Assembly: GCA_943788135.1 (NCBI GenBank)
Contig: CALSPC010000007.1
Location: 310,001-374,000 of the forward strand
Reading direction: 5' to 3'
Origin: an uncultured Paracoccaceae bacterium
GTDB taxonomy: Bacteria; Bacteroidota; Bacteroidia; Flavobacteriales; Flavobacteriaceae
DNA length: 64,000 bases
The notes below the pieces were generated by a model, which was given only the letters and a program-made list of their open reading frames with translations, was not told the origin of the DNA and ran no database searches. Positions 30,890 to 57,106 of this stretch are shown piece by piece. Positions within the stretch are counted from its first letter, which is position 1; each line of letters begins with the position of its first letter. The position numbers were made by a program, and so were the translations under genes.

Positions 30890-30912
30890 TTTTTAAAAAT
30901 TTAGTTAGTTTA

Positions 30913-30942
30913 TTGTTTAAACAAATATATAAAAAATTAAAC
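30913..30942. promoter_or_regulatory. Proteorhodopsin promoter with GTTTAA-N16-TTAAAC inverted repeat (site A)
   Basis: Half-sites lie at 30915-30920 and 30937-30942, with 16 bases between. On the minus strand the spacer holds TATATTTG (30922-30929), a perfect TAnnTTTG -7 box, giving a leader of about 25 nt for proteorhodopsin. The left half-site is also part of a 12-bp palindrome TTGTTTAAACAA (30913-30924). A bound regulator would cover the promoter. Spacing and half-sites match sites B (58315) and C (62780). Confidence 0.65.
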
Positions 30943-30999
30943 TAATTGTTGAGTATTTAGTAAATTTATAGCCTCAAATAATGTATTTAACACTTTTTT

Positions 31000-39404: not shown

Positions 39405-40322
39405 TTAAAACTTCAAATTTTCGTTTTTGTCCCAAAGCCCCCAATAGGCACCTACTTTTCCTTCTGGACCTACTTTCCATGACTCATCAAAAGATGAGAA
39501 ATAGAAATTAGGAATGTCATTTTCTTTAGTCCAACGCATGGTGTCAATGAAATACTTCATTGCAGCTCTTTCGCTCGCAATTGCACCTCTTAGACCACCA
39601 CCCTGACTTGGCCAACCTGTTTCTGTAATAATAATTGGTTTGCCTTGTGCTGCGTCTACAACTTGACCATACATAGCTTGCATATGTCCTAAAGAATAAT
39701 CTATTGGACAGCCTTCCCAGTAAGGGTATAAGTTTGCTAATATAACATCCGAGTGTTCTACAATAATTGGATGACGAGAAAACTCATAATACGCATCTAC
39801 ATAACCAATTGGAATATCTAATCCAGCTAAGGCTTCTTTTACACGTTTCATGTACCCTACTAACTCTTCTAAAGTTAAGTCGTTACGATACAAAACCTCG
39901 TTACCAACTGCAGCCACATCTACGTGTCCAGCTTTTGCTAGTGCAATTAGACCTTCAATTTCTTTTTCGTTATCTTCTTTATCATCACCAAGCCATGCGC
40001 CAACTAATGTTCTTAAACCATGTTTTTTGGCTGCAACAGGGACAAATTCATTGCCTTCTGTACAGGAAAATGAACGTATAGCCCCTACATAAGGTTTCAA
40101 AATTTTAACACGGCGCTCAACTTGAGCCATACTAATTTCATCACCTGGTTTTTGGCCATCTTCATACATACTAAAGCAAATACCATGCATGCCATCTTGG
40201 ATGGTTTTACGCCATTGGTTTTTTAAATCTTCTAATGAATCTTTAGAGACTTCTATACCCTTTGTGGCAATCTGACTGTAATCATTTTTTGGTTTGTAAT
40301 AAGATTCTTCTCTGTACGACAT
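39405..40322 (-). CDS. GH17 glycoside hydrolase, cytosolic
   Basis: Family 17 (beta/alpha)8 enzyme (305 aa), expected to act on beta-1,3-glucans. Acid/base E142 in AVGNEVL and nucleophile E234 in ITETGWPS are both present. There is no signal peptide, so it should work in the cytosol on imported laminari-oligosaccharides. It is closely similar along its length to the GH17 domain of the next gene (shared SFSCTEGNE, VGAWLGDD/VGAWIGDD, YPYWEGC/YPFWEGC), which points to a tandem duplication. It starts 17 bases after the fusion gene and ends the operon. Endo, exo or transglycosylating mode cannot be told. Confidence 0.9.
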   Translation of the reverse strand: MSYREESYYKPKNDYSQIATKGIEVSKDSLEDLKNQWRKTIQDGMHGICFSMYEDGQKPGDEISMAQVERRVKILKPYVGAIRSFSCTEGNEFVPVAAKKHGLRTLVGAWLGDDKEDNEKEIEGLIALAKAGHVDVAAVGNEVLYRNDLTLEELVGYMKRVKEALAGLDIPIGYVDAYYEFSRHPIIVEHSDVILANLYPYWEGCPIDYSLGHMQAMYGQVVDAAQGKPIIITETGWPSQGGGLRGAIASERAAMKYFIDTMRWTKENDIPNFYFSSFDESWKVGPEGKVGAYWGLWDKNENLKF

Positions 40323-40339
40323 TTCTAATATGTAATTTA

Positions 40340-42682
40340 CTATTGTTTAAATTTTAATTTTTCGTTTTTATCCCAAATTCCCCATCGAGCGCCAACATCA
40401 CCCTCGTGGTGTACTTTCCAAGATTCATCAAATGATGAAAAATAGAATAATGGTATTTCATTTTTTTGTGCCCAATTGGACGCATCAATAAAATACTTCA
40501 TTGCATTATTTTCTGTTGGTTGTGCTGACTCTAAACGCGCACCTTTATTAGGCCAACCTGTTTCACTAATTATTACAGGTTTCCCTTTTGCAAACTGCTG
40601 TGTCACAGCATACATTTGCTTTAAATAGAGCGCAGATTCTTCAATATTACAGCCTTCCCAAAACGGGTAGCAATTTACTAAAATTACATCACATGCGTCT
40701 ATAATTTTTGGTCTTTCTACAAACTGATAATACGCATCAACATAACCAACTGGAATCTCAGGTAATGCTTTTTTTACTCTGTTGATGTAAGCAAGTAACT
40801 CTTCTTCACTTAGCTCTCCGCGCATTAAAGTTTCATTACCAACAACTGCAATATCTACAAAACCGGATTTTGCAAGCTTTATTAGTGCTTTAATCTCTTT
40901 TTCGTTTTGAATTTTATCATCACCAATCCAAGCACCAACCATAGTTTGTAATTGTTTTTCTTTGGCAATTTTTGGAGTATGTTCATTACCTTCTGTACAT
41001 GAGAATGAACGCACCCATTGTGAATACGGCGCTATCACATCCATTCGTTTAGAAATCTGAGATTTTGACAATTGATCGCCTATATTTTGACCTTCTAAGT
41101 ACGGACTAAAACACAAGCCGTGTAATCCATTATTTAATGTTTTTAGAAACAAGGCCTTAAGCTCTGCATCTGTTTTTGATGAAAAATCAGTATCCGTTGA
41201 CCCGTCAATTTTTAAATCTGAACGTAGCAAGGATGCGAGTTTGTCAGTTTGATAATAGGAACTGTTTTTTGATTTTTCCTTATGCTTTTCTAATTCTGCT
41301 CTTATTTCATTAGCCCGGTCTTCATCAATATTATAATCTCGCATGATATACATTGCTGCAAAAGTCCCTAATGTTGGGAAAAAACAAAAGAATGCATGCA
41401 AGCCATCAACTGCTCCTTGTTGATCTAGTGTTGATAAATCTGAATTAAAACCAACTAACCATATAATTAAACCGCTTAATGCTCCAGCTATTGCATAACC
41501 AACCTTGACCATCCACCAATAAATAGCGCCAAAGATTCCTTCTCTTCGTTTACCAGAATTTAATTCATCAACATCTATAACATCTGCTGTCATTGACATC
41601 ATCACTGTAAATAAACTACCAATACCAAAAGAGAAAAATGGTAAAGCAAAAATATACATCCAAGGTTTTCCTGGAATGAATAAGAAATACAGCATAATGT
41701 AACCAAAAATTGAAATGCTTTGGCAAATCATAAATGCTTTTTTCTTTCCGAATTTTTTTGAAAGCCTCGTTACTATAGGAATTACAATAAAGGTAGTACC
41801 CAATGCTCCAAATGCTCCAAATAATGAGACCCAAATTCCTGATGCTCCTGCGTCTCCATTAAAAAGTTTATATACAATTACAAAAAATGTAAGTGAAGAA
41901 ACTGCCATAAAAGCATTGTAAATAAAGAATGTTGCTCCACACAATTGTCTAAATTCTTTGATTTTGAATGCTTCTTTTGCACTAATTAATATTTTTTTAA
42001 GGCTTTCACCTATAGTTGAAAAACTTAGGGGCTCATAGTCATTATCAAGAGTTGATTCACTTTTAATGAACAGCGCCGGCACAATTGCACATAATGCACA
42101 AGGAATAGCAACCCATATAGCGAGTTCTCTTGCGGCCACATCTGCAGATGGAAACCATTCTGGATCGTACATAATAATCCAAAATATTGGTGCTATCACC
42201 CATGCCCATTGACCAATCCATTGAGCTGTTGCCATAATATTGGTACGTTCGTGAAAATCATCACTCATCTCATAGCCCATGGCTACGTAAGGTACACTAA
42301 AAAAAGTAAGTCCTAAATAGAAAATTACAGACCAGAAAAAGAAATACCAAAAATTATATTGTACGGTGTTTTCCTTGAAAAGTTGCCACATAAAAACATA
42401 GGAAACACCCATAATAATTCCGCCTATTAAAACATACTGTCTACGTCTTCCCCATTTAGATTTCGTATTATCAGAAATAAATCCCATCAAAGGATCTGTT
42501 ATAGCATCAAATAACCTTGGAAACAGATATATCATTCCCCACATTAAGCCAGTAAATTTTAAATCTTCTACCAAAACCACCATAAATATGCCTAAAATGG
42601 CAGGAAACATTTGGTTGGCAAACATACCGATGCCAAAGGCTACCTTTTGGCTGAATGGTACTTTTTCTGAACTTATAGACAT
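40340..42682 (-). CDS. GPH/MFS sugar permease fused to a C-terminal GH17 domain
   Basis: A 780-aa fusion. Residues 10-450 are a 12-helix glycoside-pentoside-hexuronide symporter, with the family motif FDAITDPLMGFISD then KWGRRRQY (58-83) and the second-half VDELNSGKRREGIFGA (371-386). After a charged linker (450-500), residues 505-780 are a complete GH17 domain with acid/base E617 (VVGNETL) and nucleophile E707 (ISETGWPN). With twelve helices the C-terminus faces the cytosol, so glucan oligomers could be cut as they leave the carrier. The frame is continuous, with no stop or indel at the junction. Neighbours are a GH30 gene upstream and its GH17 paralogue downstream. Confidence 0.92.
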   Translation of the reverse strand: MSISSEKVPFSQKVAFGIGMFANQMFPAILGIFMVVLVEDLKFTGLMWGMIYLFPRLFDAITDPLMGFISDNTKSKWGRRRQYVLIGGIIMGVSYVFMWQLFKENTVQYNFWYFFFWSVIFYLGLTFFSVPYVAMGYEMSDDFHERTNIMATAQWIGQWAWVIAPIFWIIMYDPEWFPSADVAARELAIWVAIPCALCAIVPALFIKSESTLDNDYEPLSFSTIGESLKKILISAKEAFKIKEFRQLCGATFFIYNAFMAVSSLTFFVIVYKLFNGDAGASGIWVSLFGAFGALGTTFIVIPIVTRLSKKFGKKKAFMICQSISIFGYIMLYFLFIPGKPWMYIFALPFFSFGIGSLFTVMMSMTADVIDVDELNSGKRREGIFGAIYWWMVKVGYAIAGALSGLIIWLVGFNSDLSTLDQQGAVDGLHAFFCFFPTLGTFAAMYIMRDYNIDEDRANEIRAELEKHKEKSKNSSYYQTDKLASLLRSDLKIDGSTDTDFSSKTDAELKALFLKTLNNGLHGLCFSPYLEGQNIGDQLSKSQISKRMDVIAPYSQWVRSFSCTEGNEHTPKIAKEKQLQTMVGAWIGDDKIQNEKEIKALIKLAKSGFVDIAVVGNETLMRGELSEEELLAYINRVKKALPEIPVGYVDAYYQFVERPKIIDACDVILVNCYPFWEGCNIEESALYLKQMYAVTQQFAKGKPVIISETGWPNKGARLESAQPTENNAMKYFIDASNWAQKNEIPLFYFSSFDESWKVHHEGDVGARWGIWDKNEKLKFKQ

Positions 42683-42726: not shown

Positions 42727-44205
42727 TTATTTTTGTACTACTATAGTTTGAATTGCTTGGGGTTGTATGGTTATTAATTTTGATGTTTTTCCTAGAGAAA
42801 GCTCAAAAGTTTTTAATTCTTTTCCTTCATTAAAAACGATTACAGCAATAGATCCATCTGGATTTTGTGCAGCAGTTACTTGTAAGTCTGCATCCGATTT
42901 ATCTAAACCAATGACTTTTGCACCTGGGCGGATGTATTTACTAAAATGTGCCATGGTATAGTACAACGGTGTAAAGTAAACTTCATCATTATCTGGATCG
43001 ACAATTACTGGGGCTACACACCAGTTTTTAAACCAGTTTGGCCCGCCTTGTCTATCTAAGACCATATTCCAATCTACCCAACCATCTACCCAATTGTTTA
43101 GGCAGCCAATAATGTCTCTGGCGTATCTATTAACAGGAGCGTATTTTGGATGTAAATATTTTTTTGCAGGTTCTCTCCAATCGTAACCCCAATCTGTAGA
43201 TTCTTTTGACCAATACCATTTGTCATCTTGCCATTTTGGAATTTCTGAATCTACACACCCTTCAGTTTCAATTAAATATTTGTTTGGTGCTTTTTCATGT
43301 GCATATTGTAATGCTTTAGGGAAAAAATCATAGGTGCTTTCATACCAATGAATAGCGGTTCCTGAGAAATATTTAGAAGACGCTTCATTTTTATACATGT
43401 CATCTACCCACTCTTTTAAACCATCTCTGTTTTGATCATACCCTAAAATTTTAACATCTGACTTTCCTACTTCTTCTAATTTTGGACCTAAATAGTTTTG
43501 AACAAAATCCGTTTCTTCTTTAGGGGAAAAATGCATACTCTCCCAATTATTTCCATTTCCGTGAGGCTCATTTACTGGAGTTAACCCCCAAATATCAATC
43601 CCTTCGTTTTTATAAGCTTCTAAATATTTTGAAAAATATAACGCAAACGCACTATAATACTCTGGCAATAATTTACCGCCCACATAGTTTTTATTGTCTT
43701 TCATCCATGGCGGAGCTGTCCAAGGCGATGCTATGATATTAAAACCCTCTTTAGAGATTGCCATAGCATCTTTTATCATGGGAATTAAATCGTCTCTATC
43801 TTCTTCAATACTAAAATGATTTAGCTCCATATCGTCGGCGATTGGCGCATAAGTGTAATTATTTAATGAAAAATCACAGGAACTTATATGCGTTCGTGTC
43901 AGCGTATAGTTGGCGCCATCTTCACTAAAATAAGCCTTAAGTATGGTGTCTCTATTTTTTTTACTCAAACGATTTAGTAAATGCGCAGAAGATTCTGTGA
44001 ATGATCCACCAAAACCAGTAATAGTTTGAAATATAGCTTCTGGATTCAAATGAATTTTAGAAGGGTTTTCAGAGGTTTCGAATTCTGAAATTTCAGCTAG
44101 TTTATTTCCATTTGCAGAAGTTTCATACACTTTAACTTCTAATGATTGTTTGGAGGTACACGCTGTGAGCATTAGTGATAAAATTAAAAAATGATACGTT
44201 TTCAA
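42727..44205 (-). CDS. GH30 glycosidase lipoprotein (probable beta-1,6-glucanase)
   Basis: Clan GH-A enzyme (492 aa) with a lipobox LMLTAC (Cys16), so it is anchored to a membrane, probably in the periplasm or on the cell surface. Acid/base E213 in TPVNEPHGN and nucleophile E315 in LIETEGCVD. The C-terminal beta-sandwich (about 430-492) is typical of GH30. Subfamily placement by eye favours the glucosylceramidase/beta-1,6-glucanase branch. In this setting it would remove the beta-1,6 branches of laminarin so that GH17 and the phosphorylase can proceed. Confidence 0.9.
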   Translation of the reverse strand: MKTYHFLILSLMLTACTSKQSLEVKVYETSANGNKLAEISEFETSENPSKIHLNPEAIFQTITGFGGSFTESSAHLLNRLSKKNRDTILKAYFSEDGANYTLTRTHISSCDFSLNNYTYAPIADDMELNHFSIEEDRDDLIPMIKDAMAISKEGFNIIASPWTAPPWMKDNKNYVGGKLLPEYYSAFALYFSKYLEAYKNEGIDIWGLTPVNEPHGNGNNWESMHFSPKEETDFVQNYLGPKLEEVGKSDVKILGYDQNRDGLKEWVDDMYKNEASSKYFSGTAIHWYESTYDFFPKALQYAHEKAPNKYLIETEGCVDSEIPKWQDDKWYWSKESTDWGYDWREPAKKYLHPKYAPVNRYARDIIGCLNNWVDGWVDWNMVLDRQGGPNWFKNWCVAPVIVDPDNDEVYFTPLYYTMAHFSKYIRPGAKVIGLDKSDADLQVTAAQNPDGSIAVIVFNEGKELKTFELSLGKTSKLITIQPQAIQTIVVQK

Positions 44206-44234: not shown

Positions 44235-45509
44235 TCATTGTTTTTTTGGGGGTAATTCAACTTCAAGTAACAGCGCTTCCTTATTGCCATTATAGGTTTT
44301 CGTAATTGGTTCTCCGTTACGAGTCAGTCCATCAAAAACACCTTGATCCACCAAGTCCCAGAGTGGATATTTAGCTTTCCCATCAACCGTGAATAATCCA
44401 AAATAGTTCTCAGACCCTCCCTTGTTGTGAGCATCTTTCCAGGGTTCATCAAAGGCTTCAAAATAGAAACATGACATCTTACTTTGAGCGGACCATTGAC
44501 GCATCTTATTATAAAACAGGGCTTCCTTGTACTCATCTGTTGCTTTTGACCCCTTAGAACCATAAAGTCCGTTTGAGGCACTTGCCCAACCCGTTTCTCC
44601 AATATGAATTGGTTTTTTAATGCCTAAACTTTTAATATAACTGGCTACACTATCAATCTGAGAGATCGCATAATTTTTTGCGCGATTCATAGCAACATCA
44701 ATCCGCTTTAGGCTTGAGAGTTGTGTTTCTTCTCCAAAAACACCCCAAAAAACAGGGTTATAATGGGTATCGTGCATTGGATATGTATGTACGGATAAGT
44801 AATCAACAGCTTTTATTAATTTGGTAAGATCCTCAGTATGGTATTGTGAATCTCCACCACCCCATGATGCAAAATTATCTGAACTTGTAATCCAAATATC
44901 TTTTGATAATTTCCCTGTTTGTTTTAACCCTTGTAAATGTGAAACCCATTTCAAAATGACATTGGGTTGCACAAAATATGTAGTGGCCCATTTTACCATA
45001 GCCTCGTTACCAACAGCAATAATTTTCACAATGTCTGGATAGGCATTAGCCAAGGCTACCGCACGATCAATTTCTGCGGCATTATGTTCACTTTCAACAT
45101 TATGGTTAACGGGTTTATCTGTCCAAGCATTTAAACAATCTATCCAAGCCCCGAGCATCAAGTACATTTCAAAATTAGGATCTTCATTTTTTAATTCTCG
45201 TATCGCTTTGAGAATATTTGAAGCGTGTGCTAATTGAACATTATATGTTCTTAATACTCGGATATTCATAGCATGAAGAATTTTCATATCTTCTTTAAGC
45301 TCTTGGATAGTAGGCTGAAAATCTCTAGATGATTTCCGATATCCTCCATAAGAGATGGCCAAGTAGTCTGAATTTCCTAATATATCTTTAGCAGTCACTG
45401 TTTTTTGTGTTTGATCGATTGGTATTGGTTTTTTTGTTTGATTTTCTTTACAGGACATTACAAGAAAAACAAGCGCTATTAAACCTAAAATAAATGTTGC
45501 TTTTCTCAT
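44235..45509 (-). CDS. GH17 lipoprotein
   Basis: Family 17 beta-1,3-glucanase-like enzyme (424 aa) with a lipobox LVMSC (Cys20). Acid/base E169 in AVGNEAM and nucleophile E305 in IGETGWAS. It is longer and more distant from the two cytosolic GH17 copies, with an insert around residues 205-265 (SWGGGDSQYHTEDL) near the substrate cleft. A role in periplasmic or surface trimming of laminarin oligomers is inferred. It lies 15 bases from the phosphorylase and 29 from GH30. Confidence 0.9.
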   Translation of the reverse strand: MRKATFILGLIALVFLVMSCKENQTKKPIPIDQTQKTVTAKDILGNSDYLAISYGGYRKSSRDFQPTIQELKEDMKILHAMNIRVLRTYNVQLAHASNILKAIRELKNEDPNFEMYLMLGAWIDCLNAWTDKPVNHNVESEHNAAEIDRAVALANAYPDIVKIIAVGNEAMVKWATTYFVQPNVILKWVSHLQGLKQTGKLSKDIWITSSDNFASWGGGDSQYHTEDLTKLIKAVDYLSVHTYPMHDTHYNPVFWGVFGEETQLSSLKRIDVAMNRAKNYAISQIDSVASYIKSLGIKKPIHIGETGWASASNGLYGSKGSKATDEYKEALFYNKMRQWSAQSKMSCFYFEAFDEPWKDAHNKGGSENYFGLFTVDGKAKYPLWDLVDQGVFDGLTRNGEPITKTYNGNKEALLLEVELPPKKQ

Positions 45510-45524
45510 AATATCATATAAATA

Positions 45525-48500
45525 CTATTTTAAACGACTACTTTTAATATGTACGTTTATTTGAATGATTTCTCCGTTACGACTAAATACTTGTTCGCTT
45601 ATTTCTTTATCTAAGCTTAGAGATTTAAACGTTTTAGTATCTCCATTACTAAAGTTTACTGATAACCCTTCTTCTTCTGCTATTGTGTAAATGACAGGCA
45701 CTTGACAATAAGTGAAACATAATGAATCTTTAGAAATCAAAATACTCTCTTGTTTTTTAGGCAATGCGATGTAATGAAATAGTTTGCTTTCTTGTAAAAA
45801 TTCATTTTTACGTAACAAACAAGGGTTAAATCCAAGTTTTCCTTCGGAAACATTAACACCTAATTCTCCAAAACGTGATAAGACATCTTCTTTTACCTGA
45901 CCAGTCATCCCTGGTTGTTGAGCACCTTTTCCTGCTGGAGTATGCGAATACGGATCCGTTGGAAAAGCGCCGTATAATTGTGGGGATTTATGAACTCCAA
46001 TTCCAGCATTTATTTCGTAATAATGATCTAATAAATTTCCAACATCAACTGCATCTTGATCAGAATCAATTGCTGCGGTACACGTTTCTAAAACGGCTAA
46101 TTGCAGCTTTGAAACCATATGCCAGTATATAGACCCTAAACCTTCATAGCCATAAAATGTTCCTGAACGTCCTGTGAAAGCTTTATGGTTAAATACGTCT
46201 TCAAAAATCTGAAGAACTTTTGAAGTATCCTGATCTATTAATGATGAGTAAGCAGTTTCAGATAGCTCTACTAGAGCTGCCTTTAAATCATTGGCATTTT
46301 TAAAATTCCCGTTAAAATGGTACACACCATTAACATCTTTTTCTATGATTTGCACATTTTTATCCGCAACTAGTTGTTGTAATAATTTGGAAGTTGAAAT
46401 GGCTGCTTCAGAAATTGTATTACGTTCAATAAATCCTTTTAGATCTTTGTAAGGATATAATAAATAACTGTACTGATCTGGACGGAAAAGTTTACTACTT
46501 TTCATGGCGTTCAGAACAGACAATGACTCTTCACTAGATAAATATTTTGAACTTAATACTGCAACTTGCCCTTCTAACATTTCATCTAAATACGAAATCG
46601 AAACGCTGTTATCAGAATTAACTGTCATTAAATTATACGCATGGTATAAGTTATCTTCTCGTTTATTGACACTAATTGAGTGTTCTAAATAGCTTAAACT
46701 AACGTTTATAAAATCTTTTAAATCACGAATTGAAATACCCTCTTTTCTTCCAGAAAATGCATGCGCATACACTTGATCTCTGTACGTGCTACCTGCAGTT
46801 CCTAATGCATCTAAAATTAGTTTTCGATCTGTGTCATTGATACGGTCTGAAAGTAAACTTTCATGCTCTTTAAACGTCGATAAAATCGAGTTAAAGAACG
46901 CTACAAGTTCTTTAGAAACTTCAACTGATTCCAAATCTGATTGCTCAATAATGGTGTCAAAGAATTTCATAAAACGACGAAGGTAATATAAGGTTACCAT
47001 GGAAACACCACTACCTACTAAAGCATTATTGGCATCGTTCCATTCGGGGCGTTGCGTATTCATCCATATTCCGCCTTCAGGGATAAAATTTGAAAATTTC
47101 GCTAGTGTTGTAGCTAGAATTTTTTCAATGAAATTAACTTTCACAATAAAGCGATTTTCATCACGAAGTAAAGCACCATCGGCACCAAGCTCAACACGTT
47201 GTTCTCTAATTTTGAGATCTAAGGCTTCATCAAATTCAATAGTATCCTTTGGGTTTTCAAGTAATGCGTCATAGCTTTTGATTTTATAAGGTACATTGGC
47301 GTACACAAATAAGTCTTTATTAAAAAGTGTAGCTAGTTTTTCTGGTTGGTGTTTTTCAATAAACTCTAAAAACTTAAGTAAATAAATTATTTGATGATCA
47401 CCCCAATAGCCAATATATGACCAAGGATCATCAGGCTCTATAGTTTCCCAATCAAAACCTCCTTTTGTCACTCTGTAAGGATTGTAGCCATCAAAAGTTG
47501 TTGCATTTAAGAACTTGTGAATCATACTCTCAATAAATGCAGGATAGGAATGTGCTAAAGCCTCCCAGTTTTGGAAGATATCGCGCCAGTTTCCTTCGTA
47601 ATCTAATATTTTAGAACCATCAATTTCGCTCTTAGTGTTGATTGAAAATTTGTTCCAAGGACGACTAGGATCACCATGACGACGGCTAAATTTTAAGGGC
47701 ATATACTCGAAGCATAAACGTCTAAAGTTAGTGTCATCAACTTCATATGCTAAGGCTTGTAACACAGAAAGTGAAAAAACTTCAGGCAGTTTTGCTACAC
47801 TATCTTCAGTTGTTCTGAATACTTTTTTGTTAGCTTTTGATAAGTAATTTTTAAAATCCCACTTTTCAATTTGATAGTTATCATCAAAAATACCACCTCT
47901 CATAATATTGAATAAGGTATTTGCAAAATGACGAGTATCTCTAAATTTATCAGCTGAAAGCTGTAAACCATCAGAAGCAGCATTTAAAGCGATTAAACGC
48001 GTTGTTCCTTTTTCAATTTTTTCATTGATCAATTCAGCTAATCCATCATTGGTTTTAATTTGATTGATCAGCTTTGCAATCGCTGAATGATTTTTATTGA
48101 CTTCTGCAACAAGCATCCATTCTTTAGTTTGCTGTGGTGTTAGTACAATTTTTGAATTGACAAAGTAGGCGCCTTTTTCAGCTTTCACATCGGTTTCTTC
48201 AACAAGCTCCTGTTGCTTTCTAAAACTATTCAATTGTAAAGAAGACAATAAGTGCTTAGCATTATCCAGTCCCAGAGACCAAACCACATTTGCTTTCAAA
48301 GCTTCACTAGGTTCCGCTTTATCAACAATTATTGCGCTTAATGCATAAATTCCTAGGCCTGAACTTTTATCTAACTCACTTCGTTTATAGGCATCTACTA
48401 AATTACTACTTGCATTTTGCAAATCGCTACCAACGCCATACGGCAAAATGTTTTGAATTCCATCCAATACATTGACTTCAATTTTTGAAGTTGAATCATT

Positions 48501-48998
48501 GATAAGCTTTGATTTTTTTATAAACCCAAAAGTGTTTGTAGAATTCCACTGGTATTGAAAAGTAAGCTCTAGGTCGTGATTAATTTCTTCAAATAACACT
48601 TTATTCCCAAACTCATTTTTATATAAATTTTGGGTAGTTTGATACTTCCCTGCAAAACGATCCGAAAAAGGCTCCCACAAATGTATGTCATTATTTTTAT
48701 GGACTTGAAACATTGATTTGCTTCCTGTTATCTCAGCTGCTTCTGTAATTTTATCATCCGTGTAATATGGAAATAAGGCAAATTCAGAATTTTTTCTTCC
48801 CGCTGTTAGACCTCCATTACTAGAGATAAACATCCAATGGTTAGAATCGCTAACAATGCTCATGAAAAAAGGACGCATTTTATCACTGTTAGAAATTTTG
48901 TAATAGACTTCATTGTCAATACTAACTAGTGAACCGTCTATATCATTTGTTTGTTTAACTTCTTGATCTTTATCTAAAAAAATAGTTTTTTTTGTCAT
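45525..48998 (-). CDS. GH149-type beta-1,3-glucan phosphorylase
   Basis: A very large (1157 aa) cytosolic enzyme of clan GH-Q with no signal peptide. An N-terminal beta-sandwich (to about 310) and a helical linker precede an (alpha/alpha)6 barrel; the motif PEWNDANNALVG (E652-W-N-D655) corresponds to the WND region with the catalytic Asp in GH94 relatives. Length and the glucan neighbourhood fit GH149, which phosphorolyses beta-1,3-oligoglucans to glucose-1-phosphate; GH161 is the alternative. This saves ATP compared with hydrolysis. First gene of the inner operon, with an inverted repeat just upstream. Confidence 0.85.
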   Translation of the reverse strand: MTKKTIFLDKDQEVKQTNDIDGSLVSIDNEVYYKISNSDKMRPFFMSIVSDSNHWMFISSNGGLTAGRKNSEFALFPYYTDDKITEAAEITGSKSMFQVHKNNDIHLWEPFSDRFAGKYQTTQNLYKNEFGNKVLFEEINHDLELTFQYQWNSTNTFGFIKKSKLINDSTSKIEVNVLDGIQNILPYGVGSDLQNASSNLVDAYKRSELDKSSGLGIYALSAIIVDKAEPSEALKANVVWSLGLDNAKHLLSSLQLNSFRKQQELVEETDVKAEKGAYFVNSKIVLTPQQTKEWMLVAEVNKNHSAIAKLINQIKTNDGLAELINEKIEKGTTRLIALNAASDGLQLSADKFRDTRHFANTLFNIMRGGIFDDNYQIEKWDFKNYLSKANKKVFRTTEDSVAKLPEVFSLSVLQALAYEVDDTNFRRLCFEYMPLKFSRRHGDPSRPWNKFSINTKSEIDGSKILDYEGNWRDIFQNWEALAHSYPAFIESMIHKFLNATTFDGYNPYRVTKGGFDWETIEPDDPWSYIGYWGDHQIIYLLKFLEFIEKHQPEKLATLFNKDLFVYANVPYKIKSYDALLENPKDTIEFDEALDLKIREQRVELGADGALLRDENRFIVKVNFIEKILATTLAKFSNFIPEGGIWMNTQRPEWNDANNALVGSGVSMVTLYYLRRFMKFFDTIIEQSDLESVEVSKELVAFFNSILSTFKEHESLLSDRINDTDRKLILDALGTAGSTYRDQVYAHAFSGRKEGISIRDLKDFINVSLSYLEHSISVNKREDNLYHAYNLMTVNSDNSVSISYLDEMLEGQVAVLSSKYLSSEESLSVLNAMKSSKLFRPDQYSYLLYPYKDLKGFIERNTISEAAISTSKLLQQLVADKNVQIIEKDVNGVYHFNGNFKNANDLKAALVELSETAYSSLIDQDTSKVLQIFEDVFNHKAFTGRSGTFYGYEGLGSIYWHMVSKLQLAVLETCTAAIDSDQDAVDVGNLLDHYYEINAGIGVHKSPQLYGAFPTDPYSHTPAGKGAQQPGMTGQVKEDVLSRFGELGVNVSEGKLGFNPCLLRKNEFLQESKLFHYIALPKKQESILISKDSLCFTYCQVPVIYTIAEEEGLSVNFSNGDTKTFKSLSLDKEISEQVFSRNGEIIQINVHIKSSRLK

Positions 48999-49193: not shown

Positions 49194-51497
49194 TTAAGGT
49201 GTTTTTCTTACAGAAATGTTATCCACATTCAATCTAGCTGCACTATTGACGATTTCAATGAGGAAAGATAAACCTCCTTCAACCTGATTTGCATTAGGAG
49301 CAGATGTAAACGTGAATTCTTTGGTTTCCCAAGATGTCGTTGACACAGACGATGTATTGTCCGTAAGGATGTGTTGCGTTGCCGCTACTGTTCCACCATC
49401 AGCACCTTCAGAAAATGTAAAAGCTTTTACCAGTCCACCATCTCCTAATACATCAGAAGCGATGATATCAAACTTCACAGTATAAGATGTATTTGGAGTT
49501 ACTAAACCTGTTCCAAAACGTTCCATTTTTAGACCAACAGCTACACCCGTTGAACCTTGAATTTCTGCAGATTGATTACCACCATTGTTTATAGTAGTAG
49601 AGATCGTTGTGCCGTCGAAAAATTGCCAGCAACCAACATCTCCAGCTTCAAAATCTCCGTTGGCTAACAACTCTCCTGCTGGAGGCTCTGGACAAGTATC
49701 CGTACCGCCGCCGCCGCCGCCGCCTGAACCATACAATTTCAAATCATCAAAATAGTAGGTATCTGCATTGTTAGCATTCAGGTCAAAGAAAATTACAATC
49801 TTATTAAACTTATCACTGTCCGCAGCTGTAAAAGGGAACGTCAGTTCTTCCCATCCACTAGTAACTGAAGTCGTCAAAAACTTTTCAACATTATTTCCTG
49901 CATTTCCAATTTCTTCTAATTTTAATCGAACTTCTGTATTAGCTCTTGCTGACCATACTTTGATTTTTAGTCCAGAATTAGAGTTGAAATCTAATTTTGC
50001 ATCTAAATCATATTGGTTATTATCCCAAGGGTTATTATTTGCTTTTACTACTTGCCCTACTTTACATGAGCTGTTAACGTCGTTGTCAAAATCTGGATTA
50101 TCTATCCAAGAAAACCCTGCGCCATCAGAAATAAAATCTGCGCTTGGATCTGTTTGAAATGTCATATTTAGATCTGTAGCACTATATGATTCTGCAGTTT
50201 CAGGATCACAAACTACAGGAGCTGTCCCTGTTCCGTATAATGTCAAATCATCAAAATAGTAGGTATCAGTATTGTTTGCATTCAAGTCAAAGAAAATTAC
50301 AATCTTGTCAAACTTGTTACTATCTGCGCCTGTAAAAGCAAAGCTCAATTCTTCCCAGCCACTAGTAACTGAAGTCGTTAAAAACTTTTCTACATTATTA
50401 CCTGCATTTCCAATTTCTTCTAATTTAATTCGAACTTCAGTATTCGCTTTTCCAGACCACACTTTAAGTTTTAGGCCTTCATTAGCATTAAAATCTAATT
50501 TTGCATCTAAGTTAATTTGTGTGTTATCCCATGGATTATTTCCAAGTTTAGTAATTTTACCAACTTTACAAGAGGTATTTACTGTGTTTTCAATATCTGG
50601 ATTGGAAATCCATTCAAAAGTAGTACCATCATCAGTAATACTAGCTGATGGATCAGCCATAAATGTGACGTTTAAATCAGCTGCAGCAAGCGATTCTGCG
50701 GCTTCAGCAACACATGGTGTTGGAGGAGATGCAACTTGTGTAACATCATCAAAATAGAATGTACCAGCTGTTGTTCCTGCTCCGTCAACAAACAATGTCA
50801 ACTTAGGATAGCTAGCTGAAGAATTAAATGTAAACATAAGCTCTTCCCATCCAGTCCCTGTATGACTCGCAGTGTCTTCCGTATCTGCTGCTGTACCGTC
50901 TTCAAGTTTCAATAAAACATCTATTGGAGCATCTGCCCAAAAACTCATTTTTATAGATTGATCTGATGATAAATTTACTGCAGCTCCTAATTCAAAGAAT
51001 AAACCTTCATAAGTGGCTCCACTATTAGTAATCGCCCCTACTTTAGATTCGACAGCGTTTGTTCCTGAAAGATCTGGATTAGTCACAATTTCAAAAGAAG
51101 TGCCATCAAAAACAGTTGGGTCGTAGGTGGTGTTTTCACCATCAAACGTAATTGGAAGCGTTGCAATTTCAGGGATTGAAATTGTAATTTCATCCGTAAA
51201 AGTATCAATAGCTCCAGCAACATTTGAAGCTACTAAAACAATAGTGTACGTGCCTTCAGCATATACATTTACAGGATTGATCAGAGTAGAAGTACTTTCA
51301 TCTCCAAAATCCCATGCATATGAAGATGCATTAACAGAAGTGTTTATAAAGGTTACTGTACCAGTATCTGCATCAATTGTATGCGTAAATCCAGCTGTAA
51401 GTTTTGGCAAGACTGCATCATCATCTTCACAACCAATAAAACTGATTGCCAAGATTAAAATTGAAACTTGTTTAATTTTTTTAAATAAATTTTTCAT
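49194..51497 (-). CDS. Multidomain glycan-binding lipoprotein with a PKD domain
   Basis: A 767-aa surface lipoprotein (Cys23 in SFIGC), probably a glycan-capturing protein. Order: PKD domain (35-108, YAWDFGDESTS), a jelly-roll module (115-255), two near-identical jelly-roll modules (262-421 and 430-589, both with WEEL and IVIFFDLNAN...YYFDDL), a seven-Gly linker (592-598) and a CBM4/9-like C-terminal module (602-767, LANGDFEAGDVGCWQF). No catalytic motif is seen. It follows GH16 by 22 bases and ends the outer unit. The binding target, beta-glucan, is inferred from neighbours. Confidence 0.85.
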   Translation of the reverse strand: MKNLFKKIKQVSILILAISFIGCEDDDAVLPKLTAGFTHTIDADTGTVTFINTSVNASSYAWDFGDESTSTLINPVNVYAEGTYTIVLVASNVAGAIDTFTDEITISIPEIATLPITFDGENTTYDPTVFDGTSFEIVTNPDLSGTNAVESKVGAITNSGATYEGLFFELGAAVNLSSDQSIKMSFWADAPIDVLLKLEDGTAADTEDTASHTGTGWEELMFTFNSSASYPKLTLFVDGAGTTAGTFYFDDVTQVASPPTPCVAEAAESLAAADLNVTFMADPSASITDDGTTFEWISNPDIENTVNTSCKVGKITKLGNNPWDNTQINLDAKLDFNANEGLKLKVWSGKANTEVRIKLEEIGNAGNNVEKFLTTSVTSGWEELSFAFTGADSNKFDKIVIFFDLNANNTDTYYFDDLTLYGTGTAPVVCDPETAESYSATDLNMTFQTDPSADFISDGAGFSWIDNPDFDNDVNSSCKVGQVVKANNNPWDNNQYDLDAKLDFNSNSGLKIKVWSARANTEVRLKLEEIGNAGNNVEKFLTTSVTSGWEELTFPFTAADSDKFNKIVIFFDLNANNADTYYFDDLKLYGSGGGGGGGTDTCPEPPAGELLANGDFEAGDVGCWQFFDGTTISTTINNGGNQSAEIQGSTGVAVGLKMERFGTGLVTPNTSYTVKFDIIASDVLGDGGLVKAFTFSEGADGGTVAATQHILTDNTSSVSTTSWETKEFTFTSAPNANQVEGGLSFLIEIVNSAARLNVDNISVRKTP
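49731..50714 (-). repeat. Tandem duplicated binding-module coding repeats
   Basis: Two in-frame copies of about 480 bp (50235-50714 and 49731-50210; period 504 bp) encode residues 262-421 and 430-589 of the lipoprotein. Long stretches such as EVR-KLEEIGNAGNNVEKF are identical in both copies, indicating a recent internal duplication or ongoing gene conversion. Confidence 0.88.
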
Positions 51498-51519: not shown

Positions 51520-52473
51520 CTATTGGTTATAAACTCGTACGTAATCTACAAGCATGTTTTGTGGAAATGTTTCGCCGTCGTCAGGATTTCCTGGGAAATT
51601 ACCTCCAACTGCTAGATTGATAATGATATAGAATGGTTTATTAAATACCCAATCTCCTGTTACATCAGTAGCCTCAACAGCTTCTACTGCTGGAGACTCT
51701 TCAGTAGCTTCAACAGCTTCTACAGCATCATTAAGGGTGTAGACAACATCTGCCGGAGTGACTTCAATATCAGAAGGTGTAATTTGGTTATACAACACAT
51801 CGTCTATATAATAATTGATGTATTCTGGTCCCCACTCAATTCCAAACACATGAAATCCAGCATCATAACGGTTATTGCCTAAGTCGTAACTTTTTGTGAC
51901 TTGGCCTTGAGGGTCTGTTTCACCTGAATACCCAGGTCCATGTATAGAACCACTTACTTTTGTAGGTTCTTGTCTTCTATATTCCATGATGTCGATTTCA
52001 CCACATTGTGGCCATCCATCAACATCGAAATTTTCTCCTAAAAGCCAAAATGCTGGCCAAAGTCCTGATCCTCCAGGAACTTTTATACGCGCTTCAAAAC
52101 GACCATAAGCCTGTTTAAATTTGCCCTTAGTGATTAATCTAGCTGAGGTGTAAGAGGCGCCATTGTATTCCTCTTTCAAAGCAGTAATTACTAATAAGCC
52201 GTTCTGTACGGTTACATTTTCTGGACGGTCTGTATAGTATTGTAACTCTTTGTTACCCCAGCCATCAGTCCCTGTTCCGGTCTCAAAGCTCCATATATCT
52301 GAATTGGGAGCACCTTCAACATCAAACTCATCAGACATCGTTAAATTTGAAAAGGTCGCAACGGTTTGGGTTTCATCAGTATCACAACTCGTGAAACTTA
52401 TCATTGATGCCAAAGCAAAAGTGGTAAACAAAAGTGTTGTTATACGCATTGTCTTTTTATTATTTTTGTTCAT
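51520..52473 (-). CDS. GH16 laminarinase lipoprotein
   Basis: Endo-beta-1,3-glucanase-like enzyme (317 aa) of family 16. The lipobox is SFTSC (Cys30). The active site CGEIDIMEYRR supplies nucleophile E159, D161 and acid/base E164, with the beta-bulge Met of the laminarinase/lichenase branch. GRFEARIKVPGGSGLWPAFW and NLAVGGNFPGNP are standard blocks. An acidic 12-residue repeat (VEAVEAT) is inserted before WVFNKPF. It is probably on the cell surface and makes the first cuts in laminarin. An alternative start is ATG 52449. Confidence 0.93.
   Translation of the reverse strand: MNKNNKKTMRITTLLFTTFALASMISFTSCDTDETQTVATFSNLTMSDEFDVEGAPNSDIWSFETGTGTDGWGNKELQYYTDRPENVTVQNGLLVITALKEEYNGASYTSARLITKGKFKQAYGRFEARIKVPGGSGLWPAFWLLGENFDVDGWPQCGEIDIMEYRRQEPTKVSGSIHGPGYSGETDPQGQVTKSYDLGNNRYDAGFHVFGIEWGPEYINYYIDDVLYNQITPSDIEVTPADVVYTLNDAVEAVEATEESPAVEAVEATDVTGDWVFNKPFYIIINLAVGGNFPGNPDDGETFPQNMLVDYVRVYNQ
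51666..51727 (-). repeat. 36-bp tandem repeat inside the GH16 gene
   Basis: Two copies, starting at 51666 and 51702, encode AVEAVEATEESP and AVEAVEATDVTG. The repeat sits in a loop that is short in standard GH16 enzymes. Confidence 0.8.
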
Positions 52474-52503: not shown

Positions 52504-53955
52504 TTATTCTTTGAAGAAATACATATTATCGACGTGTAAATCCGTCACATTAGAAGATTTTATTCTTTCGATAATAATGATATTAACTGCTGTTTTATCC
52601 AAACCAGTTTCTGATGTTGGTCTGATTGGAATTTTAAAGGTTTTCCATACGCCACCTTCTTCAAAGGTTCCATTGGCTTCAGTATTATTGATATCTCCTG
52701 TTTGATCAGACCATTGATAGGTTTGACCACCAATACGCTGCTGCTGTAAAGTTGATTCAGTCTTCAAAACGACAAGCATATCTATATCTGTAGGCAAAAC
52801 TACAGGCATTAATATATCAACACTAAAATGAGTCATTTCAGAAATATCTAAAGGACTTGAAAGTTGAGTACCCACGAAATTAAAGTCCGTGTACTTAAGA
52901 ACATTTTCTCCATTTATAACAATTTCGCCGCCGAGAGTTGTTTGATACGGTTGCCAGTAGCCATTAAAAAAGTCCACAGGTACATTTGAATAACTATCGC
53001 TAAAAACAGAAATTACATCACTAGGGTCTTTAGTTGGAGCCGGTGCAAGTGCAAACTCACCAACAGCATTTATAGTTAAAGATCCTTCAGCTTCTACGCC
53101 GCCTAAAGTCGCTGTAATTACTGCTGTTCCACTGCTAACGCTAACTTCTCCAAATTCATCTACAAAAGAGATGTGTGGAGCGGAAGATGTAAAATCAAAA
53201 TAACTTGGCGCTACATTTAGGGTCTTGTTTCGACCAGAGCCTAAATTAAATGTTTGTGTTAAGCCCGTTAATTCTAAACTAATGCCTGCAAAAACATCAG
53301 ATACAACATCTTCACCATTTTGAATAGCTGGTCTTGGTTGACCAATAGTGCCCAGTTTCTCGAATTTTAATTCATCAATCCAAAAGGTGTAAGCATTACC
53401 ACCTGTGTTTTGAGTCCCCGCAGAATACCAAAACATCCCTCTTTCGTCAAATAATTTTGACGGATCAGGAATTGGAATTACATATTTTTGCCAGTTAGTA
53501 CTAAGTTTTAAATCCTTTTCACTGACTTGGTATTTATTGAGTCCAAAGTCTTGTCCGAAACCTATTTCTCCGATTGCTACTCCTTGAGAAGCTTTTGCCC
53601 AAAAGGTAAGGGCGTCAAATTCGGTAAGGTCACGTCCAGAACCTTCTACTCTAAAAATAGCGCCTGCATAATTTCCTTCTGGATCATCTGCATTAGGCAC
53701 ATCAAATCGCATGGAAGCTGCACTTTCATAACCTTCGTTTTCATCTACTGTCCAAGCATCTGCTTTAGAGCCTAAATATGGAAAGTAGAAATCGCTACCA
53801 AGTCCAATTGGACTATCTGTGAAAATCTCACCTGACTTTGACAAATGTGCAAATTCAATCTGATCAGAAAAATCTCTTTCACAACTCATCATGACTACAA
53901 AAAACAATCCTGAGAGCAATATAATTTTCGAATACATAAATTTTATATTTTTCAT
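52504..53955 (-). CDS. Glycan-binding lipoprotein with Ig-like domain
   Basis: A 483-aa lipoprotein (lipobox VMMSC). Residues 45-205 form a jelly-roll module (MRFDVPN, YAGAIFRVEGSGRDLTEFDALTFWAK, FWIDELKFEK), residues about 225-300 an Ig/BIG2-like module (YFDFTSSAPHISFVDEFGEVSVSSGTA), and residues 310-483 a second jelly-roll module ending HVDNMYFFKE. No catalytic pair is seen. It occupies the place next to the outer-membrane barrel that SusD or a surface glycan-binding protein takes in ordinary glucan loci. It is 11 bases from the barrel gene and 30 from GH16. Confidence 0.82.
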   Translation of the reverse strand: MKNIKFMYSKIILLSGLFFVVMMSCERDFSDQIEFAHLSKSGEIFTDSPIGLGSDFYFPYLGSKADAWTVDENEGYESAASMRFDVPNADDPEGNYAGAIFRVEGSGRDLTEFDALTFWAKASQGVAIGEIGFGQDFGLNKYQVSEKDLKLSTNWQKYVIPIPDPSKLFDERGMFWYSAGTQNTGGNAYTFWIDELKFEKLGTIGQPRPAIQNGEDVVSDVFAGISLELTGLTQTFNLGSGRNKTLNVAPSYFDFTSSAPHISFVDEFGEVSVSSGTAVITATLGGVEAEGSLTINAVGEFALAPAPTKDPSDVISVFSDSYSNVPVDFFNGYWQPYQTTLGGEIVINGENVLKYTDFNFVGTQLSSPLDISEMTHFSVDILMPVVLPTDIDMLVVLKTESTLQQQRIGGQTYQWSDQTGDINNTEANGTFEEGGVWKTFKIPIRPTSETGLDKTAVNIIIIERIKSSNVTDLHVDNMYFFKE

Positions 53956-53966
53956 TTTATTTATTT

Positions 53967-56900
53967 TTATTTTCCTATGTTAATGTGAATGTATGTTCTT
54001 ATTTCCCACTCATTTCCATTCGGAAACCCTATTGGGCTAATAGGTGGTACTGCTGGATAGGTATTCGGTGGAATAAACGTTGGAGAGTAACGTGGCGAGT
54101 TTTCATTTAATGAACGCCATGTACCTCGTATTCCAACTTGTGTATTTGGCAGTATAAACCAATCTGGCTTACCCAGTGTTGTTGAAACATCTAACATTAA
54201 TTGAACAGGAAATGTTAGGTTAAAATCACGGTGATAATCAAAAGGTCCCCAATCGTTAAATTTAGCCGAATGGGTTATTTTTAATTTGTTGTAAATTAAA
54301 CGAACATCACCACCAAAACGTTCTATCAAACGCTCGTCGCTACCATTCGCTTGTGCGTTACCTGCATACAGGTTGGCAATAAATCCAAAGTCTGGACTTA
54401 TTTTAGATACAATACGTGAATGTGCTTCCCACAAATCTTGTGCAGGTGCTGCATTTGGAAATGCAAAAGCAGTACGATTGGCTAAAAATCCTACATTGCA
54501 GCATCTTGAGCTGTTGGGTGGTGACGATATACAAACCCAAGGTTCATTGCTAATTTTGCATCTTCAGCACGGTCATTATCCCATTCATACATCCAGGTTC
54601 CTGGCGTAGGATCAAATGATAACAATAATTCTCCAGCGGTTGTTTCTCTGTTTGCTCTTACAGCAAACGGATCATCTTGTACGTTTCTTAAACGTCCTGC
54701 TCCACCATTTAAATCATTTGGCATGGCAGCAACAATTGGTTTTTGCCATAAGAAGTTAGGAGCAATTTGAAAGTCTCCAAAAGTGTAGGCAAAACCAGTT
54801 AGAAAATTATTTTGATTTCCACTTCCAGAATCTTTAAGTTTCCAACCTGTAAATGTTTGTGTTTGATCCGATCCACCGTTTGCAACGAGACCCATACTAG
54901 CTCCTTGAGCATACCATTTAAAAGCACCCTTTTGGTAGGTTAGCTTTGCTTTTGCACCCCAGTTATCGTTTTCATTAATTTCATCAGTATAAATAATGTA
55001 GTTATCCGTTGTGCCTTCAGCAATTTGAAATTCACGTCCATTAAGCGGTTGTCCACCCCAAATACCTCCAATATCAAAAATAAAATCTCCAAATGTTCTT
55101 GTGGCATGAAGTGTAACTCTTCTTGTTTTTGGTAGTGGTACAGCAATAGAAGTTACTGCTTCGCCAACGTCATCAATATCTTCATGGTAAACACCAGTCA
55201 CATCCCATTTTCCTAAACGTTTGCCATACTTTAATAAGATTGCTGGGTTAGCTCCCCACCAAAGTTGAGATCCAAAAGCGGCTTTTAATCCACTTAAAGC
55301 GCCTTTACCATCCGCTTCAACACCAAGTATTTCGCCGTTATATAAATCTAAATTAGGACCATAATTTGCTTCACGATACAAGCCGAAAAAATCACCTTCA
55401 TAAGCCCAGTGGTAATGACCGGTTCTGTAAAACCCTCTAAGATTAAAATCTTTAGCATTCCAGTCAAATTCAGCGTTATACACTCTTATGCGGTTAGGAT
55501 CTGTAATTTCTACATTTCCATCATCTGTATTTACTGAAAAAGGACGTCCCGTATTCTCATAAAATATTTCATCTATAGGGTTCTCAGCGACATTCCCAAG
55601 AATATTAAAATTCACATTGGCACGCATGCTTGAGTTTGGATTTGCCTCGACACCAACATAATAAGATTCCATGTGATCAAAGCCGAGCTCATTCGGGTAG
55701 TTATTTGCATTTGGAATAGCATTGTCAGGAGTTGTAATCAAAGTACCACCAGTATTAAAAGTTGTAAATTCAGCACGCATATTGCTAAGCTTGATTTTCT
55801 CATTACCACCCAAAGCCGCTTTATCGCCTCGTGCTCGAAGAACAGCATCCATCAACTCTATGCCATCAAAATGAGTCGTCAAAAACTCAGTATCAACACC
55901 CTCGTCATAAGGATTCAATTGATGAACTTCCTTTAACGCATAGTAAGATGCTCTAGGATATAGTGTATAAAGTCCTCTAGAATTTGTTGGGCCTTTAGCA
56001 CAAATCCCAAACCACTCTTCATTCATGTTATTTTGACCAGGAATATAATCGAGTTGATACCCGCCATTTGACCATGAGGCATTATTGTCGTGAATATCTA
56101 AATTTTTTGTTTGTCCAAATTTCCACCACCCGTCACTAAACTGAAATGTAAATCCTCCAATGGCATTTTCTGACTTTCCTAAGCCGGCTGCATTTTGGAT
56201 AATATCTTTCCAATTTGATACCATATAATAGGCTTGCATTTTTTGATCCTCTGCGTTTTCAATCGCATTAAATGAATCTGAACCAAATTCAGTTAACATG
56301 ATTGGCATGTCTAACTTATCTTTAACCGTTGTAAAAGCATCTGTAAAAGAGGAGCCTCTGTACATGTTAGTTCCAAAAATGTCAATGTCTTTACATTCTT
56401 CAGCAATGATGTCAATAAATAAGACATCACCATTACAAATGGCTACAGGGTGAGATGAATCTATCGACTTCATCTTTATGGCAGCATCATTCATAAGTTT
56501 ATACATTGGTCTTCCACGTTCTTCTCCAATGAAATCTCTTTTTTCTTCTTCGTCAGGAAAATCTTCTGTTTCTGCACCTGCCCAAAACAATCCGTAGTTG
56601 TTTTCATTTCCTAATAAGAACATTAATAAACCCGGAGTATCTTTATAAGCTTCAGCCATTGTAGTTACTTCTGAAAGTAACAACGCCTGCGCTGCAGGAT
56701 CTCTATAATCTGTGACTGCTTCCCATGCACCATTAATAGTCAAGCCATAACGTCCAAAGGAATGATTGAGTAAAGTATAAATTCCATAATTCTCGTATAT
56801 ATACTGAATCCATTTTGGCTGAACTCCTGTATATTGTCTTATGACATTTACACCCATATTTTTTAATAACCCCATTTCTGCATCCAAAGCTGCTTTAATG

Positions 56901-57106
56901 ACATCATCAGATTGATTCCACAAGCTGTAAGAATAATTTGTCCCAATTGGAAAATAATCCCAATTCATACCGTTGATAAAAAAGTCTTCGCCATTAACTT
57001 CTAATTTCATCCCTTCTTCGTTGTTAATCACAGTAACTTTATCTGCCTGAGCAAAAGTAGTGGCGGTAACTAGAAAAAGAAAAAAATTTAAAAAAGTGTT
57101 TTTCAT
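53967..57106 (-). pseudogene. Predicted TIM-barrel glycosidase fused to an outer-membrane beta-barrel, one-base frameshift
   Basis: If one base is restored this is a single protein of about 1046 aa. Residues 1-21 are a Sec signal peptide. Residues 25-390 form a clan GH-A-like barrel with acid/base E168 (LLGNENNYG) and nucleophile E273 (LTEFGSD), GH2/GH5-like but of no family I can name. From about 440 to the end come many paired amphipathic strands with tight turns (NLRGFYRTGHYHW, WDVTGVYHED, FTFGDFQIAPNFLW, TQVGIRGTWRSL, EIRTYIHINIG), as in porins. The first frame stops at TAG 54491-54493. One extra A in GCAATG (54495-54499) restores NVGFLANRTAFAFPN and joins the second frame (53967-54434). 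First gene of the outer glucan unit. Confidence 0.8.

Follow-up and report, generated by a model that had tools for sequence, protein, structure and literature searches.

The window, by which we mean the whole stretch of 64,000 nucleotides that was analysed, contains a minus-strand gene that codes for a signal peptide, a glycosidase domain of clan GH-A, and about 645 residues of predicted barrel strands. This fusion gene opens a locus of nine genes, in which it is followed by genes for a lipoprotein, a GH16 protein, a PKD/CBM4_9 protein, GH149, GH17, GH30, an MFS-GH17 fusion, and a further GH17. The genes and the features of the fusion are as follows:

53967..57106, minus strand: glycosidase-barrel fusion gene with one frameshift near 54,490; intact relatives of about 1045 aa
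57050..57106, minus strand: predicted signal peptide, residues 1-19
55907..57049, minus strand: clan GH-A glycosidase domain, residues 20-400, nearest fold GH158 (Pfam, profile, and Foldseek matches)
56603..56605, minus strand: E168, predicted acid/base, in GNE, invariant in alignments
56288..56290, minus strand: E273, predicted nucleophile, invariant in alignments
53967..55906, minus strand: linker helices and predicted outer-membrane barrel of 24-26 strands, residues 401 to the end, modelled on a relative (L031)
52504..53955, minus strand: partner lipoprotein with an acidic surface-type tag after the lipid cysteine, a Big_2-like middle, and flanks that are CBM-like by pattern
51520..52473, minus strand: GH16 lipoprotein
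49194..51497, minus strand: PKD/CBM4_9 lipoprotein
45525..48998, minus strand: GH149 beta-1,3-glucan phosphorylase (1812.6 bits, cut-off 1150)
44235..45509, minus strand: GH17 lipoprotein without surface tag
42727..44205, minus strand: GH30
40340..42682, minus strand: MFS sugar transporter fused to GH17 (780 aa)
39405..40322, minus strand: GH17, no signal peptide by eye

The presence of GH16, GH149, GH17, GH30, and MFS-GH17 bears out the placement of the fusion at the head of a glucan locus, as proposed in the first-pass annotation. As scored by a simple motif after the presumed lipid cysteine, at least two acidic residues at positions +2 to +7 occur in 86% of 63 lipoprotein, 94% of 36 CBM, and 75% of 57 GH16 rows, and in 12% of 33 GH17 and 25% of 28 GH30 rows. 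By this motif, the GH16, the CBM protein, and the partner lipoprotein appear to be mostly surface-tagged, and GH17 and GH30 mostly not. The MFS-GH17 gene is the second transporter-enzyme fusion of the locus, of a type in print for Formosa (described in PMC6246565 and PMC10108472). Elsewhere in the window (30164-31896), a rhodopsin gene lies beside a divergent beta-carotene cleavage (BCD) gene.

The open reading frame 54491-57106 on the minus strand comprises 871 aa, and the rest of the fusion gene lies in another frame down to 53967. Both pieces are matched by one barrel profile with almost no overlap (profile positions 1-472 and then 470-644). In comparisons with three relatives, at dS of 0.7-1.2, which is near saturation, the enzyme has dN/dS values of 0.04-0.05, and the barrel has values of 0.06-0.08 up to the break and 0.04-0.07 beyond it. 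Thus, the frameshifted tail is under strong purifying selection and has not decayed, which, on the strength of these substitution rates, marks the frameshift near 54,490 as a recent event or an assembly error. The repair into a single protein, assumed in the first-pass annotation, agrees with the relatives, which are open in one frame in 29 of 29 extracted genome loci (L008 being cut by the end of its own contig), and the signal peptide assigned there is present by sequence pattern and as a helix (residues 2-17) in the L031 model. A Gag_MA match on the fusion tail is below the cut-off and was attributed to chance. In another genome (G061), the fusion is split within the enzyme half into two overlapping frames of one contig (L179, 4683-7840).

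Relatives of the fusion are common. A search of 397 Flavobacteriaceae genomes gave matches in 127, the window's own included, at E <= 0.001. Besides the latter, a hand count gave 76 genomes that encode the full-length fusion in a single open frame of 988-1109 aa, at 64-87% identity. In two more (G096 and G207) the match is in two pieces of a single frame, and the rest of the matches consist of fragments, frames that are split or contain the enzyme only, and distantly related glycosidases. Flavobacterium aquatile LMG 4008 (L059) and Polaribacter filamentus (L049) are among the carriers of the gene. In a public genome collection, at least 565 of 589 candidate stretches code for a relative; the best 80 of them, whose matches start no later than residue 29 and run to at least residue 1040, belong to Flavobacteriaceae and to MAGs named Saprospiraceae and Lewinellaceae. 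The alignment of proteins of at least 1000 aa includes 74 of these 80 named loci, the other six having been missed by the extraction motif and not by the search. With the barrel profile, 16 genomes besides the window's own were found among 395 genomes of the class, all with frames of 1041-1093 aa, and 34 among 395 genomes of the phylum, 32 with frames no shorter than 1028 aa and two with broken remnants (G870 and G966); the two samples overlap, with five matching genomes in both lists. In neither sample of 395 genomes was a barrel found without the enzyme: the non-fused matches are the remnants behind the enzyme in G870 and G966 or a contig piece (the second match of G939), which rules out the barrel as a separate gene in these samples. 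Two halves that are always separate genes, the picture that the first-pass annotation had set against its own reading, were therefore not encountered, and intact homologues are present in the 76 Flavobacteriaceae genomes and, beyond this family, elsewhere in the class and phylum.

The enzyme half looks like GH158 in its modelled structure, and its membership in this family is putative. In a Foldseek search with the full-length model, GH158 enzymes occupy ranks 1-6 (best 9p26, E 3.7e-13; BuGH158, 6pal, 3.3e-11), with a TM-score of 0.54 by target length. In a sequence-profile search of the PDB, by contrast, GH158(Pro) (6.2e-4) and BuGH158 (1.2e-3) come after a GH2 beta-galactosidase (8e-5) and a beta-glucuronidase (6.1e-4). 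The GH2 TIM-barrel family PF02836 was matched in 24 of 25 enzyme halves at E <= 1, and it is the sole Pfam match in the first half of the window copy (6.5e-5; 22.7 bits, cut-off 21). Since Pfam matched neither the N-terminal sugar-binding nor the Ig-like domains that precede the TIM barrel in GH2, the enzyme starting straight after the signal peptide, we do not file it under GH2. The residues E168 and E273, named from the outset as the plausible catalytic pair of a GH-A barrel, are invariant in 28 of 28 rows of one alignment and in 74 of 74 rows of another, and N167 is likewise invariant in the aligned rows. They fit N136/E137/E220 of BuGH158, the Asn-Glu acid/base and the Glu nucleophile given in PMC7157763. 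The endo-beta-1,3-glucanases BuGH158 and GH158(Pro) are thus the best structural match of the enzyme half; however, the identity is just 13-15%, and after the TIM barrel no Ig-like domain was matched, its place being taken by the predicted membrane barrel.

The barrel, which had been proposed from the sequence pattern only, is now supported by two AlphaFold models and by Foldseek. The models of full-length L031 (74 rows; pLDDT 71.9, pTM 0.50) and of its barrel half alone (54 rows; pLDDT 66.5, pTM 0.64), both of moderate confidence, contain the identical 26 strands, or 24 if the hairpin 692-709 is counted as a loop. Connections after odd strands comprise 6-36 residues, with at least 18 in 8 of 13, and those after even strands comprise 2-9 residues in 11 of 12 and 21 in the remaining one. 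As modelled, this pattern is of the outer-membrane type, with both barrel ends periplasmic. The strand alternation is above that of shuffled sequences (19 of 2000 shuffles equal it), the C-terminus is a strand with alternation of outer-membrane type by eye, and a conserved helix (residues 418-431) stands just before strand 1. The out-facing loops are conserved like the strands, with 73 of 258 loop and 60 of 294 strand positions invariant; conserved outer-loop segments of L031 include GHYHWAYEGDFF, LWWGAN, and GPFDYHRDFN.

A Foldseek search of the PDB with the barrel half gave 154 matches at E <= 0.001, the best 50 of which are all outer-membrane barrels, among them BtuB, ZnuD, LptD, OprC, and FepA. 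The TM-scores to the barrels listed are 0.24-0.41 and, being low, indicate that the exact barrel fold is new or poorly modelled. The highest among the matches listed, 0.41, concerns 6r2q_B, chain B of the Mtr complex, which we take to be MtrB with its 26 strands; MtrB and the fusion barrel gave no sequence match. The MtrB barrel wraps a separate cytochrome. Pfam searches with the second half of 22 relatives gave no family above the cut-off and chance-level matches in at most three; they also gave no Plug domain match in the fusion and no autotransporter domain in the barrel half. Altogether, the C-terminal half is predicted, with moderate confidence, to be a closed outer-membrane barrel whose strands are amphipathic and whose periplasmic turns are short.

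The enzyme domain is also found without the barrel. On a tree of 51 enzyme domains (40 fused and 11 free), the barrel state changes eight times, at least seven of these changes being forced by the starred branches; this is a quick tree with two long branches, from which L222, L231, and L232 were left out. In G870 (L224) and G966 (L232), barrel remnants with stops lie directly behind the enzyme, so that at least these two cases are losses of the barrel. Wherever the start of a barrel-less enzyme could be read by eye, it has a lipobox or a signal peptide, with an apparent lipid anchor in four of the eleven forms on the tree, and a model of the T9SS tail matched none of the 10 barrel-less relatives scanned, which fits a periplasmic enzyme. 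The end branches of six of the eleven barrel-less enzymes (L228-L230 and L233-L235) are 0.84-1.65 long versus a median of 0.26 for all rows, as if constraint dropped once the barrel was lost. In one genome, within a SusC/SusD locus, the enzyme domain is fused not to a barrel but to a GH16 domain (L235:5882-7957, minus strand; 692 aa).

The linkage between the barrel and the partner lipoprotein is close. Among the 80 named loci, all 77 with at least 1 kb of room have the lipoprotein gene directly after the fusion. In the class and phylum set, for which 40 of 43 full-length barrel loci were fetched (all except those of G157, G349, and G1029), it is the next gene in 38 of 40; in L222 the contig ends, and L219 is without it. 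It is present in none of the 13 fetched loci without an intact barrel, of which L231 is truncated where its contig stops, L232 is broken, and L224 and L225 are short upstream. On the enzyme-domain tree, most pairings show the lipoprotein changing together with the barrel in all seven independent pairs (mean 6.9; median p 0.016). The one intact exception, the L219 fusion, has no lipoprotein within 20 kb; it stands at the end of a GH149-GH30-MFS cluster and adjoins a protein with a T9SS tail. Behind the presumed signal, 58 of 74 lipoprotein rows have the motif C-[DE]-R-[DE], which is close to the surface signal C-X-K-(D/E)2-X reported for Capnocytophaga in PMC5080379. A Big_2-type middle was recognized in 16 of 26 members and CBM30 in two, and the partner lipoprotein gave no SusD match.

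The first-pass annotation described the locus as one with no SusC/SusD. This is correct for the locus, but not for the genome, which has a single SusC/SusD pair elsewhere, beside genes that are GH3-like and GH16-like by eye; a genome wholly without such a pair is thereby ruled out. Among the 57 named loci with 9 kb upstream, SusC was found in 10 and SusD in 10, and in the wider set SusC/SusD was found in 3 of 40 barrel loci versus 5 of 13 loci without an intact barrel (the L236 pair being on the other strand); the local profiles were grown from the window genome's own pair, and divergent pairs could escape them. In one genome group (g294), the order SusC-SusD-GH16-enzyme-GH149 (L233) corresponds to SusC-SusD-GH16-fusion-lipoprotein-GH149 in another species (L196), and in a second group (g444), SusC-SusD-GH16-enzyme (L227) corresponds to fusion-lipoprotein-GH16, where SusC/SusD was not found (L211). 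These arrangements indicate that barrel and lipoprotein are gained or lost as a unit, beside or in place of SusC/SusD. On the tree, the association between barrel and SusC/SusD is not significant (opposite changes in 1-3 of 7 pairs, same direction in none), and simple replacement of SusC/SusD by the barrel module was rejected, also because SusC/SusD occurs in some barrel loci (the above 10 of 57). At the genome level, PF07980 (SusD) had no match in 7 of 39 barrel-bearing genomes; PF14322, run on these seven and one control, gave one weak match (G761), which leaves 6 of 39 without a SusD match by both families, five of them with the lipoprotein. A SusC query found receptor-like genes in all eight genomes tested, SusD-free ones included.

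Loci of this kind have been partly described before. Clusters with GH149 and without susCD are recorded in PMC5827456 and PMC10108472, and the 'GH0' of laminarin loci in the latter may be the fusion gene. According to PMC13188888, laminarin loci of Muricauda contain a 'GH2 beta-glycosidase', which is probably the fusion gene. One of our loci (L108) is from strain 176CP4-71 of that report (SGIU01000001.1); its fusion is the only GH2-model match among nine scanned proteins, and its neighbours GH16, PKD, GH3, GH17, and GH30 are those given there. For strain 2012CJ35-5, the report names contig 1, whereas our locus (L095) is on contig 2 and the accession match is weak, so the equation of the two genes is by inference. 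The passages of PMC13188888 on the Muricauda enzyme mention neither a barrel nor a pore. In searches of the open-licence PMC literature, none of the titles and abstract openings listed dealt with a glucan locus in which a glycosidase is joined to an outer-membrane barrel.

The fusion, its conservation, the fold class of the barrel, the catalytic pair, and the linkage of lipoprotein and barrel, all established by computation, can be combined into a candidate mechanism of glucan entry. Its substrate is very probably a beta-1,3-glucan such as laminarin, and it is quite probable that fusion and lipoprotein form a complex. Both barrel ends being periplasmic by the strand pattern, the N-terminal enzyme would lie on the periplasmic side; this topology, the starts of the barrel-less enzymes, and their lack of a T9SS tail match make a tethered periplasmic enzyme beneath the barrel likely. 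An enzyme so placed would probably cut oligosaccharides on arrival, and passage of glucan through the predicted barrel is favoured, although less firmly than the location of the enzyme. The coupling of cutting and uptake suggested in the first-pass annotation thus keeps its basis in the enzyme-barrel fusion, with its order reversed by the topology: not cutting followed by uptake, but uptake followed by cutting at the inner mouth. Laminarin fragments made by the surface GH16 would be received and passed to the barrel by the surface lipoprotein, which would join the barrel on the outside as SusD and BtuG do with their own transporters. The GH158-like beta-1,3-glucanase domain, tethered to the periplasmic mouth of the 24-26-strand barrel, would cut the entering fragments and in this way keep up an inward gradient, and the process would be finished by the periplasmic GH17 and GH30, the MFS-GH17 permease, and the cytosolic GH17 and GH149. 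We give about even chances to the tethered glucanase and the surface lipoprotein being a glucan entry module parallel to SusC/SusD.

In common with SusC/SusD importers, a barrel occurs here in regular linkage with a surface lipoprotein and heads a glucan locus, and in L108 the fusion stands directly after a regulator, as in SusC/SusD loci. The fusion differs from SusC in that no plug domain was matched and the enzyme takes the N-terminal place, in the predicted number of strands (24-26 versus 22), and in that the barrel has no Pfam match above the cut-off and the lipoprotein no SusD match. A likeness of another kind concerns Cyc2 (PMC8406198), a single protein that joins a cytochrome domain to an outer-membrane porin; there, however, electrons and not glycans are transferred, and the domains are unrelated.

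Other explanations bear mainly on where the enzyme works and what the barrel does. The enzyme might be displayed at the surface, moved through or around the barrel to cut laminarin outside, with the barrel as anchor and perhaps pore. A classical autotransporter, such as EstA, has a 12-strand barrel and an N-terminal passenger that is passed through or around it; the order of enzyme, helix 418-431, and C-terminal barrel is the same, and the locus deals with an extracellular polymer. The 24-26 strands are, however, double those of a classical autotransporter, a surface-tagged GH16 is already in the locus, and the barrel-less homologues resemble lipoproteins or signal-peptide proteins by eye and gave no T9SS tail match, so that we consider surface display unlikely. 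A comparably low probability is assigned to a non-conducting barrel that serves only to fix the enzyme at the outer membrane, with uptake via SusC/SusD or another TonB-dependent receptor elsewhere. The separate SusC/SusD locus of the window genome beside GH3-/GH16-like genes and the receptor-like genes of SusD-free genomes are in line with it, but a mere anchor needs no out-facing loops as conserved as strands and no linked lipoprotein of its own, and a lipid anchor, apparently used by four of the eleven barrel-less forms, would be cheaper.

That the C-terminal half consists of successive soluble beta domains and not of a membrane barrel, the outcome against which the first-pass annotation had weighed its barrel, is very improbable: although the confidence of the models is moderate and no Pfam family exceeds the cut-off, the same 26 strands recur in two models, the best 50 of 154 structural neighbours are outer-membrane barrels, and the final strand has the corresponding alternation by eye. 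Hardly more probable is the export or remodelling of a glucan made by the cell itself, in the manner of PgaA/PgaB or BcsC/BcsZ. Exopolysaccharide exporters combine a periplasmic hydrolase with a porin (PMC9384988), a layout that the fusion is predicted to share, but the genes around it serve degradation (GH16, GH17, GH30, a phosphorylase, and a sugar permease), and a related locus is laminarin-induced according to a passage of PMC13188888 that cites work on Formosa. Entry of glucan through the barrel, with cutting at its inner mouth, remains our preferred reading.

More than 10% of the annually fixed carbon dioxide is held in laminarin (PMC11345257), and the uptake of this glucan by Bacteroidota is usually inferred from SusC/SusD. 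Should fusion and lipoprotein together be a second entry route, loci scored as CAZyme clusters without SusCD would be complete uptake systems, a gene regarded as that of a soluble GH2 enzyme would code for an outer-membrane protein, and the coupling of hydrolysis and passage would become testable in a single polypeptide, for which the natural enzyme-only relatives are ready-made controls. More tentatively, and with a probability that we put somewhat below one half, a self-processing channel free of a TonB plug, from a barrel family as yet unnamed and with a dedicated surface lipoprotein and an inner-mouth glucanase, may be an independent route for beta-1,3-glucan across the phylum and the main route in some SusD-free genomes. 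The fusion and its matching surface protein are present in many marine and freshwater bacteria and may be an overlooked way to cut and import laminarin.
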